This document shows positions 8,062 through 50,503 of a stretch of 50,503 bases of DNA, piece by piece. The translations under genes were made by a program, and so were the position numbers. The DNA is from Sphingobacteriaceae bacterium (GTDB lineage: Bacteria > Bacteroidota > Bacteroidia > B-17B0 > Aurantibacillaceae): the NCBI GenBank assembly GCA_947453445.1, contig CANGGP010000019.1, positions 1 to 50,503 on the forward strand, written 5' to 3'. The notes under the pieces are model-generated. The model was not told where the DNA came from and made no database searches. It saw only the letters and a list, made by a program, of their open reading frames with translations. Numbering within the stretch: the stretch's first letter is position 1; each line of letters opens with the position of its first letter.

Positions 8062-8580
8062 ATGAAAGAAGGTATGAACGAAGTGTTTTTAGGTTTGGGC
8101 GGAAATATCGGTCAACGGTTAGCAGTTTTGCGAGGAGCACTTGCCTTGATTGAAGATGAAATTGGTGTTGTAACAAAACGCTCTCCAATATACGAAACAC
8201 AGGCCTGGGGAAGCAACAGCGAACATTTGTATTTGAATCAAGTAATAAAAATTGAAACAAAATTTAATGCAAGTAGAGTATTAAATATTATTGGTCGAAT
8301 AGAAAGCACGTTTGGACGAAAAAGAACCTTGGATCAAAATGCCGACAGAAGCATTGATATTGACATCTTATTTTTTAATTCAGATATAATCGACAGTCCC
8401 GATTTACAGGTACCGCATCCAAAATTACACTTACGAAACTTCGTCTTGTATCCCCTTTGCGATATTGAAAGCGAATTTAAGCATCCCATATTATTGATGT
8501 CAATGGCTGAACTCAAGAAAATGTGTAAAGACCCCTTGACAGTGAAACGCGTTGATGGCATGATAGATGGCAAAGGTTAA
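8062..8580 (+). CDS. folK: 2-amino-4-hydroxy-6-hydroxymethyldihydropteridine diphosphokinase
   Basis: HPPK transfers pyrophosphate from ATP to 6-hydroxymethyl-7,8-dihydropterin, the step before dihydropteroate synthase in folate synthesis. The protein shows FLGLGGNIGQRL near the N-terminus, the metal- and ATP-binding DRSIDIDILFF signature, and VPHPKLHLRNFVLYPL. The first ATG is at 8062, but the second at 8074 is preceded by the purine-rich AAGAAGG and gives the more typical start MNEVFLGLG, so a 168-aa product is more likely. Soluble cytoplasmic enzyme; no folate gene neighbours are present. Confidence 0.93.
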   Translation: MKEGMNEVFLGLGGNIGQRLAVLRGALALIEDEIGVVTKRSPIYETQAWGSNSEHLYLNQVIKIETKFNASRVLNIIGRIESTFGRKRTLDQNADRSIDIDILFFNSDIIDSPDLQVPHPKLHLRNFVLYPLCDIESEFKHPILLMSMAELKKMCKDPLTVKRVDGMIDGKG

Positions 8581-44111: not shown

Positions 44112-45221
44112 TTAATGCTTCTCTTTCTTATCATCTGCCAATATTGGCATTTTTACCTTCTCACCCTTTTTAAGACCACTGAGTACTTCAATGTTGATGC
44201 CATCAGACTGGCCTGTTTTGATATATCGTTTTTCAAAATGTTGATTGCCTTTTTCAACTTCTACATATGTTTTTTCTTTTTCAAATTGAATCACCCCTTC
44301 AGGAAGCGCCATCACTTTATCTTTTTTCGCCAAAATAATATCGGCATTGGCCGAATAGCCGGCACGCAGAAAGGCTGAATTATCCTTACTGATTGAAGCC
44401 CGAATTAAAAACTGAATGGCGCCGTTTTCTGTCACCCCTTTTGGTGCAATGTATTCAAGCTTGGCTTTAAAACTTGATTTATCAATGGCACCTATGCTCA
44501 ACACAATATCCATCCCGGCCTGCACTTTGCCCACTTCACTTTCATCCAATTTACCTTCAAAAATCATTTCCCCCATATTGGCAACCGAGCAAAGTGTGGT
44601 GCCTTCATTAAAGGTGTTGCTCTCAATCACTTGTCCGCCCTCTTTCACCGGCACATCTAACACCATGCCGCTAATGGTGGCCTTTACAAAAGTATTCGAC
44701 ACCGCACCCGAAGCATTCGACACCCCTTCTTTAATGATTTGTAAATTATTTTTCGCCGCCGAAAGTTCTTCTGCCATGCTTTTTAATTTGTTTTCTACAA
44801 GCAAAAAATCGGCTTTTGAAATCACTTGTTGGTTGTAAAGTATTTGGTTGCGGTCGAATTCAATTTTTGAATTGTCGTATGCCAACTGGGCAGCATTCAC
44901 CCGGCTCTCGGCATTGGCCAAGTTCAGCATGTTGGGTATGATTTTAATTTTTGCAATCACATCCCCCTGTTTTATTTGTTGACCGGCCACGATAAAAAGT
45001 TTTTCGATTATACCACTCACCTGCGATTTCATGTTCACCTCTTTGCGGGGTGTTACAGAACCTGTGGCCACCGTTTTTTTGATGATGGTGGTATCAAATG
45101 CCTGGGTGGTTTGAAAAACCTCAGGTGGTGTTTGCGATTTTTGATAGAGATAATAAAAAGTCCAAATAAAAATTCCGACAAACAAAAGGATTAAAACGAT
45201 GTTTCTTATTTTTTTTAGCAT
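44112..45221 (-). CDS. Periplasmic adaptor (membrane fusion) protein, MacA/HlyD type
   Basis: 369-aa adaptor subunit of a tripartite exporter. An N-terminal membrane anchor (residues about 7-27) is followed by a lipoyl/barrel-sandwich half (PRKEVNMKSQVSGIIEKLFI), a coiled-coil hairpin (about residues 105-165, DRNQILYNQQVISKADFLLV), the second lipoyl half (SGMVLDVPVKEGGQVI) and beta-barrel domains ending GLKKGEKVKMPI. Adaptors of this kind join a MacB-type ABC permease or RND pump to a TolC channel. Two MacB-type permease genes lie 3 kb upstream on the same strand, beyond three unrelated genes. Confidence 0.9.
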   Translation of the reverse strand: MLKKIRNIVLILLFVGIFIWTFYYLYQKSQTPPEVFQTTQAFDTTIIKKTVATGSVTPRKEVNMKSQVSGIIEKLFIVAGQQIKQGDVIAKIKIIPNMLNLANAESRVNAAQLAYDNSKIEFDRNQILYNQQVISKADFLLVENKLKSMAEELSAAKNNLQIIKEGVSNASGAVSNTFVKATISGMVLDVPVKEGGQVIESNTFNEGTTLCSVANMGEMIFEGKLDESEVGKVQAGMDIVLSIGAIDKSSFKAKLEYIAPKGVTENGAIQFLIRASISKDNSAFLRAGYSANADIILAKKDKVMALPEGVIQFEKEKTYVEVEKGNQHFEKRYIKTGQSDGINIEVLSGLKKGEKVKMPILADDKKEKH

Positions 45222-45341
45222 GGTGGTTTTTCCATGAACAAGTTAGGAAAAACAAGTGATTAATCATGTCTTAAAAAAACCAAAAATGATGAAAGCACCA
45301 AATCAAGGATGAGTAAAGCTTTTACGGGATGAAAATTTCAT

Positions 45342-47222
45342 CTACTCCTTAACAAACTTCCCATGATAAGTCTTTTGGTTCGTCAGCACTCGGTAATAAT
45401 ACAAATCAGGTGAAAGAGCACGAATGTCAATGGGCTTCATATTTTGGTAATTTGATTCCCTGAAAATTTCCTCGCCAAGTTGGTTGTAAAAAACAAGTAT
45501 GACAAGATCAGTAGAATTTGTGCTAAAAAATAATTCATTGTGCGAAGGATTTGGAAAAAGGGCGATTCCATTTTCATTCTCGGTACTACTCATCACTTGA
45601 GCGCATTTGTTTACGATCACAGAAAATGTTTTATTACTTACACAGCCGGTTAATGTATTACTGCCGCTAACAGTGTACTGAGTTGTGACAGATGGACTAA
45701 AACTCATCACATTTCCTTGCGCATTATTGCTCCAAGTGTAACTGTTTGCACCCGTTACAGTAAAACTGCTGCTTTGAAAAGGACAAACAGTTGTGTTACC
45801 ACTGATGAGCAATGCCGGTGAATTAACCACCACTTGTTGTCTGAGGGTATCGGTTGTGCAAGGTGTTTGAAGTAATAACATAACAGTGTAAGTTCCGCCA
45901 CTGCTAAAATTATGCACCGGGTTATTTAGGCTGCTCGTATTCGCAGCCCCACTTAAGGGATCATTGAAATTCCATGAGAGCCCCGTGTAATTTGTTGTAT
46001 TGCAACTAAAATTAACGGTTGGCGCAAAAAAAGTAAAATTGTTACATGCCGGCTGGATTCCAACAGAATAATTATAAACCGGCAGATTAGCTTTAAATAA
46101 TGTGCTGTTAAATCCTGGAAGTCCCCAAACACATTTGTTGTTGCCTAGCGAAACTGCATTTTGTTGTAAATTACTATTTGGGAATGTATTGTTTGGAGAA
46201 GTAATCACTGAAATTGAATTGCTGTTTGGCACAGCAATATAAATAAAACCATTTGGAGCCAATTGTAAAGCTAGATTTTTATTAGAAGCATTAATAGTAT
46301 TGGATTGAATTGAAGTTACAATCGCATTTGTGCCACTTGCACATATATCCCATTGGTGTAAGGCACTATATAAGATTGACAAACCATTTTCCGTACCGTA
46401 TAATTTAGAACAATCAGGCGAAAATTCACAGCCGTAAGCAAGCACAGAGGTAGAAGTATTAGTTGATAAAACCAAAGAATTCGAAATTACGCCATTATTT
46501 GAATTGAAATCATATAATGAAAATCTTGAACTACACGTGAAATTAGCCATTGCTAACTTTCTACCATTTGGAGAAATTTTAATTTGACCCATATCATTTT
46601 TAGTTATACCTGACTGTGAAATTACCGGAGAATTAAGTAAACCACTTGGTGTAATTCTAAATGACAAAAAATTACCTGAATTAGATTGATGAATAACCAA
46701 CCAAGAATCAATTCCATTACAATGTTTCGTTAAGGTCATTTTTTCTGAGCATCCAGTACTTAGTAAATTATTTTTCGAAATAACTGAACCACTTCCGGCA
46801 GCTAAAGACATGTCAATAATATGATAGTATAAAGTATCACTTAAAACAGAATTATTATTTATGTATGTTCCTTTACTGAGCGTGAATAAATAATACTTTG
46901 ACGAATTTCCAGGCCATCTTACAATTTGTGCAGCCTGAGTATTCGAATAACCAGAGAACAAGCCTGTGCCATTTGCCATAATTTGATTTTGATTGTTCCA
47001 TACTGTATCACCAGCGGTGCTAAATTGTAAATTGCCATTAAGGTCTGAAATACAACTGCAGCCTTCGTATGCTATCATTTGACTTGAATTCAATGCAGTT
47101 GGTGGGTTTGTGCTAAAATCTAAACCAGCCTTTCTACCAAATAACCAAAACCGTGCTTCATTTTGTGAAAACATCAAAATTGGTTGAAGTAAAATGAGTA
47201 TTATTTTAATTCGGAAATTCAT
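45342..47222 (-). CDS. T9SS cargo protein with beta-propeller-like, PKD and type A sorting domains
   Basis: 626-aa secreted protein with signal peptide MNFRIKIILILLQPILMFS. Residues about 20-380 have the repeated pattern EARFWLFGRKAGLDFSTNPP, then GCSCISDLNGNLQFSTAGDT, and GTGLFSGYSNTQAAQIV (trimmed), known from Bacteroidota propeller-like exoproteins. A PKD domain lies at about 384-470 (LSWNFNDP, VHNFSSGGTYTVML), an Ig-like domain at about 471-553, and the type A T9SS C-terminal domain at 554-626 (ALFPNPSHNELFF ... YHGKFVKE). The C-terminal domain directs it through T9SS to the cell surface. Confidence 0.88.
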   Translation of the reverse strand: MNFRIKIILILLQPILMFSQNEARFWLFGRKAGLDFSTNPPTALNSSQMIAYEGCSCISDLNGNLQFSTAGDTVWNNQNQIMANGTGLFSGYSNTQAAQIVRWPGNSSKYYLFTLSKGTYINNNSVLSDTLYYHIIDMSLAAGSGSVISKNNLLSTGCSEKMTLTKHCNGIDSWLVIHQSNSGNFLSFRITPSGLLNSPVISQSGITKNDMGQIKISPNGRKLAMANFTCSSRFSLYDFNSNNGVISNSLVLSTNTSTSVLAYGCEFSPDCSKLYGTENGLSILYSALHQWDICASGTNAIVTSIQSNTINASNKNLALQLAPNGFIYIAVPNSNSISVITSPNNTFPNSNLQQNAVSLGNNKCVWGLPGFNSTLFKANLPVYNYSVGIQPACNNFTFFAPTVNFSCNTTNYTGLSWNFNDPLSGAANTSSLNNPVHNFSSGGTYTVMLLLQTPCTTDTLRQQVVVNSPALLISGNTTVCPFQSSSFTVTGANSYTWSNNAQGNVMSFSPSVTTQYTVSGSNTLTGCVSNKTFSVIVNKCAQVMSSTENENGIALFPNPSHNELFFSTNSTDLVILVFYNQLGEEIFRESNYQNMKPIDIRALSPDLYYYRVLTNQKTYHGKFVKE

Positions 47223-47242
47223 TAATCGAATTTAATAAAACA

Positions 47243-47701
47243 TTACCAAATTATTGCATTACTACACCAAACTTGTATGCCTGAATTAGGTCCAGTAGCA
47301 CATCCCGCTATTGGAGATGTTACATATATTTTTCTCGTGGTTGGATAACAGGGCGTCCATGGCCCACCCCCGGTTGCACCTGAACCATAATTTACAGACG
47401 GAAAGCTTAATGAATTAACAACAATTTCTATATCCTCACCACCATTAAAGGTGTATGGCACAGTGTACGAGGAATTAGCTGTTATAGTTATATTCACTTG
47501 AAAATATAGTAAACCACATCCCGGTGATGAGGCAGGGTCAAATACCTTATAATCCAATGTAACTGAACATTGTGAATTGTTGCTTATGACAAAAGGAATT
47601 GATGGAGTGCAACAAAGCTGAGCCTTTATTGTTTGTCCGATTGAGACAATGAATAGCATTAAAAAAATTAAATGCATTTTACTTCTAGGTTTTGTTTTCA
47701 T
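47243..47701 (-). CDS. Small Cys-rich exported protein of unknown function
   Basis: 152-aa protein with signal peptide (MKTKPRSKMHLIFLMLFIVS...IKA), where Met9 may be the true start. The mature part has seven Cys (LCC, QC, GC, PC, GC, WC), many Gly/Ser/Thr/Pro and a beta-rich pattern: CSVTLDYKVFDPASSPGCG, then ITITANSSYTVPYTFNGGED. It has no C-terminal sorting domain of its own. It is 20 bp upstream of the T9SS cargo gene on the same strand, so they are probably co-transcribed. Function unknown. Confidence 0.68.
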   Translation of the reverse strand: MKTKPRSKMHLIFLMLFIVSIGQTIKAQLCCTPSIPFVISNNSQCSVTLDYKVFDPASSPGCGLLYFQVNITITANSSYTVPYTFNGGEDIEIVVNSLSFPSVNYGSGATGGGPWTPCYPTTRKIYVTSPIAGCATGPNSGIQVWCSNAIIW

Positions 47702-47777
47702 AATTGTGGATTTTAGATTTTTACAAAATTATTTTGTTGGTAGCATCTTTCCCATCCAAATTTTGATTAATTTAGTC

Positions 47778-47820
47778 ATTCAATGATTGAATAAATCACT
47801 TCTTGATTCATTCAATCATT
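47778..47820. promoter_or_regulatory. Tandem palindromic operator between XRE gene and secreted-protein genes
   Basis: A perfect 15-bp palindrome ATTCAAT-G-ATTGAAT (47778-47792) and a second, imperfect one TGATTCATTCAATCA (47804-47818) are spaced by about 26 bp centre to centre. AATGATTGAAT (47782-47792) and ATTCAATCATT (47810-47820) also form an 11-bp inverted repeat. It lies between divergent starts at 47701 and 47843, a place suited to autoregulation by the XRE protein. Confidence 0.65.
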
Positions 47821-47842
47821 TTCAACTTAAGTTAAACCCAAA

Positions 47843-48145
47843 ATGAAAGTTGGTCAAAATATTAAACTCCTAAGATTAGTATATGATATTTCAGTGAAAG
47901 AAATGTCATCCTATTTAATGATGAGCGAACATAATTATCATAAAATTGAAAGGAATGCAATTGGCATAAAATTTGAAAAAGCCACAAAAATTGCCGGCCT
48001 ATTTCAAATAACATTAGACGACTTGGTAAACAAAAATGGCATTGCAATCGTTGCTGAAATCCATCAAAAAGGCGAAATATTTTTAATGCAGAATAAAATT
48101 AGAATAAAATTAAACTTATCCCCCCCCATTAAACCAACACTTTAG
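47843..48145 (+). CDS. XRE-family helix-turn-helix regulator
   Basis: 100-aa transcription regulator. Residues 1-60 form an HTH_XRE domain: MKVGQNIKLLRLVYDISVKE, MSSYLMMSEHNYHKIERNAIG (recognition-helix region) and KATKIAGLFQITLDDLVNKNG. The short C-terminal tail ends in a run of Pro and looks unstructured. It is alone on the plus strand between minus-strand genes, with tandem palindromes 23-65 bp upstream. Probable targets: its own gene and the divergent secreted-protein genes. The coding frame stays open through a run of Cs at 48120-48127, which is a spot where sequencing errors are common. Confidence 0.83.
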   Translation: MKVGQNIKLLRLVYDISVKEMSSYLMMSEHNYHKIERNAIGIKFEKATKIAGLFQITLDDLVNKNGIAIVAEIHQKGEIFLMQNKIRIKLNLSPPIKPTL

Positions 48146-48178
48146 CGCAAATAATCACGGGGCTTTATACAAACCATT

Positions 48179-49432
48179 TTACTCACTCCTTAGAGCCTCC
48201 ACCGGTTTAATGGCCACTGCTTTCCTTGCAGGGATTAGTCCGGCTAATGCGCCGCTGAGAATTAAAATTAATAAAGCGCTTAGCGCCACTTTAAAATCGA
48301 TGGTGGGATTCGAAAACATTTCTCCGCTTTCGCCGATGGCTGAATTTAATAGTTCTAATGAAAGCACCCCAACCAGCAAACCTGCATAACCGGCCAAAGA
48401 AGTGAGGAATACTGCCTCCAACATAATTTGTCCGATAATTTGCATGGGCACTGCCCCCAGTGCCCGCTTCACCCCAATTTCTTTGGTGCGTTCTTTCACA
48501 ATAATCAACATGATATTGCTGATGCCAATTACGCCTGCTAATAAGGTGCCGATTCCAACAATCCATACTAAAATTTCGATGCCCAAAAACAAACCTTCTA
48601 ATTTTTTAAACTCCACTTCCATGTTCCAATGTCCAATGGCTTTTTCATCGAGTGGGGAAATTTTATGTCTTTGTTTTAAAATATCCATTACCCGCTTTTC
48701 GCTTATTTCAGCCGAAATATCGTCGCGTGATTTAATGGCAAACCATCCAACAACATCGCCCATGTTAAAGGCATTTTGAAAGGTTGAAAATGGAATGTTA
48801 ATCAAGATTGCATCGTCGCGGCCCTCATCGCCGTCACTGGCCACTTTGGTTAAACCAATCACTTTAAAATACACACCATTCACGCGAATAAATTGACCAA
48901 TCACCGTTTCCCCTTTTTTAAAGAGTAGTTCGGCAACACGTGGTCCAATCACACACACCTTGCGTTTTTCGCGCTCATCTAAGTCATTGATAAATCGGCC
49001 TTTGGTGATTTTAAATTCTTTGATCTTGGCCAGGTTCGGCAAATTGGCTTGTATTTTACACACCGCGGTTTTTAATCCCCGCACCACATTGTTCACCCCA
49101 TCATAACCACCTAATTCATTCATGGGTGATACCACATCCAATTCTTTAATTTGCTCAAGGGCTTTAACATCGGCCAAATTAAAATTAAAACGTCGTCCGG
49201 GTTTTAATCCTTCATAAGCTTTGCTGGTTTGTTGTGCCCAACAGAAAAAACTATTGGTGGCTGATCCTGAAAAATCTTTTAATACGCCATTGCGCAAACC
49301 GTTACCCGAGCCCAACATAATCACCAACATAAAAATGCCCCAAAAAACACCAAGCATGGTTAAAAAGGTCCGTAATTTATTTTTACGAATGCCCGCCATT
49401 ATTTCTTGCCAATTATCGCGCTCAAATATCAT
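48179..49432 (-). CDS. MacB-type ABC transporter permease
   Basis: 417-aa permease of the MacB/FtsX type, without an ATPase domain. It has TM1 at about residues 19-41, a large periplasmic MacB-type core domain (about 42-280), and three C-terminal helices with the family stretch ILVWIVGIGTLLAGVIGISN, then IMLIIVKERTKEIGVKRALGA (trimmed) and LIPARKAVAIKPVEALRSE. Such proteins use mechanotransmission rather than transmembrane transport to drive extrusion through an outer-membrane partner. It abuts the upstream permease gene with no spacer. The ATPase gene is probably beyond the right edge. Confidence 0.92.
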   Translation of the reverse strand: MIFERDNWQEIMAGIRKNKLRTFLTMLGVFWGIFMLVIMLGSGNGLRNGVLKDFSGSATNSFFCWAQQTSKAYEGLKPGRRFNFNLADVKALEQIKELDVVSPMNELGGYDGVNNVVRGLKTAVCKIQANLPNLAKIKEFKITKGRFINDLDEREKRKVCVIGPRVAELLFKKGETVIGQFIRVNGVYFKVIGLTKVASDGDEGRDDAILINIPFSTFQNAFNMGDVVGWFAIKSRDDISAEISEKRVMDILKQRHKISPLDEKAIGHWNMEVEFKKLEGLFLGIEILVWIVGIGTLLAGVIGISNIMLIIVKERTKEIGVKRALGAVPMQIIGQIMLEAVFLTSLAGYAGLLVGVLSLELLNSAIGESGEMFSNPTIDFKVALSALLILILSGALAGLIPARKAVAIKPVEALRSE

Positions 49433-50503
49433 TTATTCTTCTCTTAAACTACTAATGGCCTGTACATTGGCGGCCTTTAATGCCGGAAACAATCCGGCCA
49501 GTGCCCCCGATAAAATCATTAAAAAAACCGACAACAAGGCAATGCCTATGTTTACATCCGGTTTTTGAAAAAAATCACTTTCCAATTCAAAGAATTTTGC
49601 CAATTCTATCGCGCCTATGCCTGCAATTAATCCAACATAACCTGCCACAAAGGTGATGAATACCGATTCCAACATAATCAATGAAACAATTGAAAATGGT
49701 GTGGCGCCCAAGGCTTTGCGCACACCAATTTCTTTGCTGCGTTCTTTCACCACAATCATCATGATGTTGCTCACGCCCACAATGCCCGCCAATAGGGTCA
49801 AGACACCGATAATGAAAACAAAAATTTTAATGCCATTGATTAATCCCATCACGCGTTTAAAACTCACATTGTTATTATAGATGCCAACCGCATTCATGTC
49901 CTCTACCTTAAAATGGTATTTTTTGGCCAAGCTCGCACGAATGTTTTTGGCGGTGACTTCACTTTCATCTACCGTTGAATTGCCGGTACCGGCCCAAATG
50001 GTGTGTATTTTGTTTTTAGCGTTATTGATGCGTTGCGAAGTCACCAAAGGAATATAAATTCTTTCATTATCGCCTTTACCCGCATCATTAAACACACCCA
50101 CCACTTTGTATTTGGTGCCTGCCACATCAATAAATTTGTTGATGGGTGATTCATCTTTAAACAAAGCTTTTTTCACTGGTAAACCAATGGCGCATACCTT
50201 TCGGCATTCATCAAAATCTATTTGGTTAATAAAACGGCCATCTAAAATTTTTACGTTTTCAAGTATGCGGTGATCAGGCGCAACCGCCCTGGTGGTATAA
50301 CTCAAATGTTCATTTTTGTATGAAAGCACTTTGCTCTCCCATGGCCGATACATGGCCGAAGCAATCACCACCCCTTTTTGTTTGGTTTTTATATCTATAA
50401 AATCATTATTGGTCAATTGAATTTCTCTTCCAACCTTAAACCCCTCGGTTGGCATACTGGTCATGCCACCTTCAATCCAAATAGCATTATTAACATCGTT
50501 GCC
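49433..50503 (-). CDS. MacB-type ABC transporter permease (cut by window edge)
   Basis: Second MacB-type permease, reading open to the right edge (ending, in the protein sense, with no start inside the window); the Met at 50464 is internal. About 356 residues are visible: the periplasmic domain including GRFINQIDFDECRKVCAIGLP and VKKALFKDESPINKFIDVAG, then three C-terminal helices with GVLTLLAGIVGVSNIMMIVV and KERSKEIGVRKALGATPF. It is paralogous to the neighbouring permease, and the two probably form a heterodimer. The first transmembrane helix is missing from the window. Confidence 0.92.
   Translation of the reverse strand, partial: GNDVNNAIWIEGGMTSMPTEGFKVGREIQLTNNDFIDIKTKQKGVVIASAMYRPWESKVLSYKNEHLSYTTRAVAPDHRILENVKILDGRFINQIDFDECRKVCAIGLPVKKALFKDESPINKFIDVAGTKYKVVGVFNDAGKGDNERIYIPLVTSQRINNAKNKIHTIWAGTGNSTVDESEVTAKNIRASLAKKYHFKVEDMNAVGIYNNNVSFKRVMGLINGIKIFVFIIGVLTLLAGIVGVSNIMMIVVKERSKEIGVRKALGATPFSIVSLIMLESVFITFVAGYVGLIAGIGAIELAKFFELESDFFQKPDVNIGIALLSVFLMILSGALAGLFPALKAANVQAISSLREE

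Follow-up and report, generated by a model that had tools for sequence, protein, structure and literature searches.

An exporter operon apparently interrupted by a secreted-protein insert with a candidate XRE regulator in a Sphingobacteriaceae bacterium

Bacteroidota carry many genes for cargo of the type IX secretion system (T9SS), among which type A cargo proteins combine a signal peptide with a C-terminal sorting domain (TIGR04183). Small XRE/Cro-C1-type regulators such as restriction controllers and phage repressors are helix-turn-helix (HTH) proteins that act locally on a divergent gene, with palindromes in the shared intergenic region. MacB-type tripartite exporters associate a LolD/MacB-type ATP-binding cassette (ABC) ATPase, permeases that carry MacB_PCD and FtsX domains and a periplasmic adaptor of the HlyD/MacA type; their substrates, according to the passages of one review that bear on them (PMC5985334), include enterotoxin STII, a small protein whose export MacAB-TolC supports, and a peptide of 42 residues with a single disulfide bond, on which a MacB-like system acts. 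The three kinds of genes meet at the right edge of the window studied here, a stretch of 50,503 nucleotides which is the entire contig CANGGP010000019.1 (C19) of a draft genome of 153 contigs from a Sphingobacteriaceae bacterium (GCA_947453445.1). There, a MacB-type exporter operon very probably became interrupted by an insert encoding a small cysteine-rich (Cys-rich) exported protein, a predicted T9SS cargo and a small XRE regulator (Table 1).

The pump is of a known kind. With MacAB-TolC and LolCDE-like exporters it shares a separate LolD-like ATPase, MacB_PCD and FtsX permeases and a HlyD/MacA-type adaptor, encoded in one operon in relatives. It differs from E. coli MacB by an ATPase separate from the permease and by the presence of two permeases, and from the described exporters as a whole by the insert that cuts the operon and by scores far under the E. 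coli equivalog cut-offs (90.7 of 342 bits for MacA; 133.3 of 966 for MacB, with permease 2). No TolC-like outer membrane channel was seen in the exporter operon, the genome not having been searched for one. Our gene calls and domain searches bear out the gene list and domains of an earlier note on this DNA, as well as its expectation of an ATPase gene past the right edge. The end of contig C31 carries a 232-aa ABC ATPase (ABC_tran 107.7 bits) directly upstream of permease 1, together with the first 136 residues of that permease. C31 overlaps the right edge of the window by 250 nt, of which 243 are identical (97.2%), an inexact overlap as expected if strain variation breaks the assembly; we infer the join of both contigs, with the support of synteny. 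No second adaptor, which the note had named as a sign against its proposal, was found on C31, and the five adaptor matches of the genome lie on C19, C88, C46, C6 and C104.

Gene order was compared across 40 genomes of the genus, including the genome under study. Orthologues of the adaptor (66-81% identity) and of permease 2 (58-76%) are present in 18 relatives, and in 16 of them both genes are adjacent on the same strand, with the gaps given in Table 1. The complete row of ATPase, two permeases and adaptor is found in 12 of the 18; contigs end before the full row could show in G010 and G022, and the nearest permease-1-like match lies on a different contig in G043, G048, G014 and G052. Named records with the permease agree, nine out of ten having the four genes in a row and the stretch of the tenth (L251) stopping 106 nt past permease 2. 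These ten, all metagenome-assembled Bacteroidota or Bacteroidia and counted without a 28% Myroides match, add little, since six appear to match genomes already counted. The pump loci of the 18 relatives gave no tblastn match to the XRE or Cys-rich proteins. The permeases and adaptor thus normally form one operon, as the note had supposed, and its interruption appears specific to this lineage because 16 of 18 relatives keep permease 2 next to the adaptor and none has the XRE or Cys-rich gene at the locus. From this comparison we hold with high confidence that the insert interrupted the operon, which is one of the two readings that the note had proposed.

The insert also differs in composition from the pump genes. 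The GC content at third codon positions (GC3) is 28.7% in the cargo gene, 25.5% in the Cys-rich gene and 27.7% in the XRE gene, against 42.2% in the adaptor, 41.6% in permease 2 and 42.3% in permease 1; four further window genes range from 31.3 to 36.0%. Such a difference, in a draft assembly of many contigs with a strain-variable contig end, could also be expected if the insert had been wrongly joined into the operon from another place or organism. We consider such an artefact extremely improbable, as the insert lies inside a 50-kb contig with both junctions in ordinary sequence, and the same genome has related copies elsewhere (XRE on C26; Cys-rich on C4 and C68). The adaptor downstream of the insert is, judging from its sequence, intact and constrained: compared with three relatives, its rate of non-synonymous substitution (dN) is 0.14, next to 0.18-0.19 for permease 2 and 0.27-0.29 for permease 1.

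Several observations weigh against an insertion of this kind. The separation of adaptor and permease 2 is not unique by itself, because G043 and G052 also separate them. In G043, three unrelated genes of the other strand lie in between (a small gene, a uppP-like and a truB-like gene, named from sequence), and in G052 each of the two genes stands alone, far from contig ends. The note had considered that an adaptor far from the permeases and equipped with its own pump would speak against its proposal; the adaptor of G052 is indeed far, yet no pump of its own lies beside it. The junctions show no convincing repeats or target duplication, repeats being the only feature looked for there, and the gene calls and Pfam domains of the insert include no integrase, recombinase or transposase gene; transfer is thus only a possible origin. 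The same pattern would also arise from losses in the relatives or from a rearrangement inside the genome, though 16 of the 18 relatives share the uninterrupted state. Synonymous substitution is saturated or undefined for the pump genes, hence the constraint on the adaptor comes with no dN/dS ratio. At the loci of G052 and G043 (L094, L095; L083), the exporter parts are dispersed, with the adaptor beside uppP-like and purH-like genes and permease 2 elsewhere.

Table 1. Features of the exporter operon and its insert (window coordinates)
Feature	Position	Strand	Remarks
MacA/HlyD-type periplasmic adaptor	44112-45221	-	HlyD_D23/HlyD_3 above cut-off; NCBIfam RND_mfp 128.2 bits (cut-off 94.9)
Insert between permease 2 and adaptor	45222-48178		2,957 nt, versus a gap of -22 to 328 nt in 16 relatives
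T9SS type A cargo, 626 aa	45342-47222	-	TIGR04183 28.9 bits (cut-off 23); PF18962 24.8 bits, below cut-off 27
Small Cys-rich exported protein, 152 aa	47243-47701	-	Seven cysteines in the translation; signal peptide by our own rule
-7-like box TAATTTTG	47724-47731	-	Upstream of the Cys-rich gene and facing it; TTG 25 nt upstream, at the edge of the allowed spacing
Operator-like palindromes	47771-47820		Perfect 15-nt palindrome and inverted repeat with 17-nt arms
Small XRE/HTH_19 regulator, 100 aa	47843-48145	+	Divergent from the cargo genes, convergent with permease 2
MacB/FtsX-type permease 2	48179-49432	-	MacB_PCD 111.5 bits, FtsX 61.7 bits, both above Pfam cut-off
MacB/FtsX-type permease 1, 3' part	49433-50503	-	MacB_PCD 53.7 bits, FtsX 62.3 bits, above cut-off; 5' end past the edge

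The cargo encoded in the insert is of a known kind with an unnamed partner. Its sorting domain above the NCBIfam cut-off, its signal peptide and the T9SS component SprA in the same genome (515 bits) are those of type A cargo, and its secretion through the T9SS is predicted; the pairing with a small Cys-rich exported protein and a divergent XRE gene sets it apart. The protein consists of an N-terminal region common to other partners of Cys-rich proteins, a PKD-like region and the sorting tail, and its first 372 residues are 35% identical to the partner in G012. Comparison with solved structures returned a chance-level match only (E 0.085). The Cys-rich protein matched no curated Pfam or NCBIfam family at E 0.01, and an attempt to approach its function from structure was given up, the single-sequence model being useless (mean pLDDT 33.9) and no fold search being made.

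Seven relatives of the Cys-rich gene were found: one in G022, one in G012, two more in the genome under study (C4, C68) and three in G047; a match with four stops (G070:C441) was dropped as chance. At five of the seven loci (own C4; C23, C1 and C34 of G047; C56 of G012), the Cys-rich gene is directly followed by a large protein gene on the same strand, whose product has the same kind of N-terminus (type ..WYFG..AALDF.TNPPT..). The partners on C4 and on C23 of G047 end in a T9SS type A tail above the cut-offs, and the G012 partner is cut by a contig end. The Cys-rich gene of G022 has no T9SS-type partner, and C68 ends before a partner could show. Two copies look broken, that of C68 by an internal stop and that of C1 in G047 by a short frame. 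No XRE gene appears beside the five pairs in the neighbour gene lists; therefore the Cys-rich/cargo pair would be a unit of its own, to which the XRE gene is an addition at the window locus. The three pairs of G047 (L152, L153 and L154, respectively on C23, C1 and C34) are gathered in one genome lacking an orthologous pump, its best matches reaching 27% identity for the adaptor and 26% for permease 2.

These pairs bear directly on the second reading of the note, by which the exporter and the secreted proteins would form one functional unit, the pump moving the Cys-rich protein or its product out of the periplasm and the XRE protein controlling both. The genes are neighbours, the Cys-rich gene, cargo and adaptor share a strand with no -7 box before the adaptor, and the small proteins and peptides handled by MacAB-TolC and MacB-like systems in the reviewed passages provide precedents. 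We nevertheless judge this reading highly improbable. None of the five other Cys-rich/T9SS loci has a pump gene among the neighbours in the gene lists, and G047 keeps three pairs with no orthologous pump at all. A Cys-rich relative was found in only two of 13 searched pump-bearing relatives (G012 and G022), in both cases off the pump contig, and the other 11 have no detectable one at a limited sensitivity, the first search having missed two copies of the genome under study that a later search found. Moreover, the XRE gene is convergent with the permeases. Independent pump and secreted proteins are thus the better description of the locus.

On the upstream side of the pair, the 141-nt region between the XRE and Cys-rich genes (24.8% GC) does contain the tandem palindromes reported in the note. 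The stretch 47778-47792, ATTCAATGATTGAAT, forms a perfect palindrome, and the inverted repeat with 17-nt arms spans 47782-47820, with a score that none of 200 shuffles of this region, made by pairs of bases, attained. The distance from the palindromes to the XRE start codon is 23-72 nt, and the only -7-like box is at least about 40 nt away from them. This box fits the Bacteroidota -7 consensus TAnnTTTG, which is loose, with 68 such boxes in the window on both strands. None occurs within 120 nt before the adaptor, and because of this the adaptor may depend on read-through. The position of the palindromes would suit an XRE gene that regulates itself and acts on the cargo from upstream, with either direction of control compatible. 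We hold with moderate confidence that the insert is an autonomous cassette and that the XRE protein would be its switch; that the secreted module is regulated, as the note had put it, is what we infer. A shared operator in the XRE subfamily was considered and abandoned as it runs counter to the counts: among 17 other XRE intergenic regions, an inverted repeat beyond chance was found in one (L119, p about 0.01), hence the palindrome is not general to the subfamily.

Near its 3' end, the XRE gene contains a run of eight C (48120-48127, + strand), the sole C or G run of at least 7 in the window; the paralogue on C26 has a shorter C run near the same end. A slip in this run would alter only the tail of the protein, and phase variation would be a guess.

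The XRE protein matches HTH_19 just below the cut-off (27.4 bits, E 3.2e-6; cut-off 30.2), and a profile built from three proteins (window, own C26 and G013) matched 165 of 295 genomes of the class. In 26 of the 30 nearest homologue loci returned by this profile, the XRE gene and the gene upstream of it are divergent, and in 20 the latter is in addition exported. The same script gave 12/27 divergent and 6/27 divergent-exported for a MarR control (Fisher p 0.0012 against XRE), and 11/27 and 3/27 for TetR (p 3e-5). Other XRE genes, taken as HTH_3 genes outside the match list, were divergent in 21/24 and divergent-exported in 4/24 (p 3e-4). Five HTH_3 loci also in the XRE match list were dropped, as were L283, which has no neighbour, and three MarR and three TetR loci with no open reading frame or neighbour. 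Removal of the two loci that served for the profile leaves 18/28 against 13/78 pooled controls (p 6e-6). Restricted to divergent genes, the exported fraction remains higher than for HTH_3 (20/26 against 4/21, p 1e-4) and TetR (3/11, p 0.008). The rule by which we call proteins exported is our own and does so for 18-40% of all genes in these loci, and because of this background the 77% among divergent partners is a rise.

Other points temper this enrichment. Against MarR, the comparison among divergent genes does not reach significance (20/26 versus 6/12, p 0.14), the breadth of the export rule is itself a weakness, and related genomes in the counts are not independent. XRE genes at large are mostly divergent, as the HTH_3 control indicates, which makes divergence alone uninformative; the exported neighbour is the only difference. 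Some homologues do not fit, either having same-strand neighbours or lying, as L109, L110 and L187 do, beside DNA methylase-like genes. In a description that is not a test, 62 of 74 partner proteins from 31 loci picked by hand were scanned at E 0.01, after truncated loci, loci next to methylase genes and loci lacking a divergent neighbour had been left out; 11 of the 62 had T9SS type A tails and one a type B tail, and one set is a grasp-with-spasm peptide system. On other aspects, two loci of genus relatives, L107 (7586-8440, G023) and L159 (7359-8188, G014), show two tandem small exported proteins (128-143 aa) divergent from the XRE gene, with a 'GxFGYK' motif by our reading. In G107 (L181, 2142-6841), an XRE homologue is divergent from a gene for a small peptide with a GG-like leader and from large partner genes, a set which looks like a peptide-modification system.

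These neighbourhoods also help to assess whether the XRE gene is instead what remains of a mobile element (a repressor of phage type, an antitoxin or a restriction controller) and stands beside the cargo by accident. Among NCBIfam models it matches best that of the phage repressor RstR, at 24.2 bits for a cut-off of 80, and the three homologues beside methylase-like genes would agree with such an origin. It shares with restriction controllers and phage repressors the small, predicted HTH protein, the divergent gene and the palindromes in the intergenic region. However, its subfamily differs from them in having mostly exported or T9SS proteins as partners, as far as sequence tells, with 20 of the 30 nearest homologues facing an exported-protein gene. 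The gene calls of the insert contain no phage, toxin or restriction gene, and a mobile origin was set aside when neither the XRE nor the Cys-rich protein proved to have relatives in viral contigs or plasmids at the limits used. We regard a mobile remnant as improbable, and a local controller of the cargo pair as the better candidate.

The same genome has a second, decayed association of this type. The XRE paralogue of C26 (L085, 7910-8221) is 47% identical to that of the window, and its start codon is abutted by a fragment (8222-8420) that reads away from it, with 51 residues 57% identical to the end of the window cargo, the T9SS tail. In the simplest reading, a deletion would have removed the intergenic region and most of the cargo gene. 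A conserved C26 site in relatives was looked for and rejected: the 22 relative loci of the left-hand gene have no XRE gene or tail, and the gene on the right is likewise not conserved in them, in flanks of at most 1.5 kb of which at least two (L293, L308) are too short to tell.

Taken as a whole, the explanation we favour, and consider probable, is that a cassette interrupted the exporter operon, with the XRE protein as its likely controller and with pump and secreted proteins independent of each other. The ancestral locus would have been a four-gene exporter operon of ABC ATPase, two MacB-type permeases and periplasmic adaptor. A 2.96-kb cassette would have entered between permease 2 and the adaptor in this lineage, bringing the gene of the Cys-rich small exported protein, then that of the T9SS type A cargo, and the divergent XRE gene. 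The XRE protein would most likely bind the intergenic palindromes and is predicted to control itself and the cargo pair. The adaptor would still be under selection, and may be partly transcribed by read-through from the cargo promoter.

To our knowledge, little is known on the switching of single T9SS cargo genes. One T9SS paper (PMC4800418) reportedly deals with the secretion machinery. In the open-licence literature we found no account of a pairing between XRE genes and genes for exported or T9SS proteins, and what may be new is the link of this XRE subfamily to exported genes. Going further, it is possible, though in our opinion rather doubtful, that a widespread XRE subfamily, undescribed in the literature searched, supplies genes for exported and T9SS surface proteins in Bacteroidia with dedicated local switches and travels with them as small cassettes. 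One of these would have landed in a pump operon, where the adaptor may have come under the cargo promoter, and the decayed copy would mark an earlier cassette. The locus indicates that the cutting of its operon or, as in G052, its dispersal need not cost a tripartite pump its adaptor. If the XRE subfamily does act as a local switch, its pairing with exported genes would offer a handle for finding conditionally made surface proteins.

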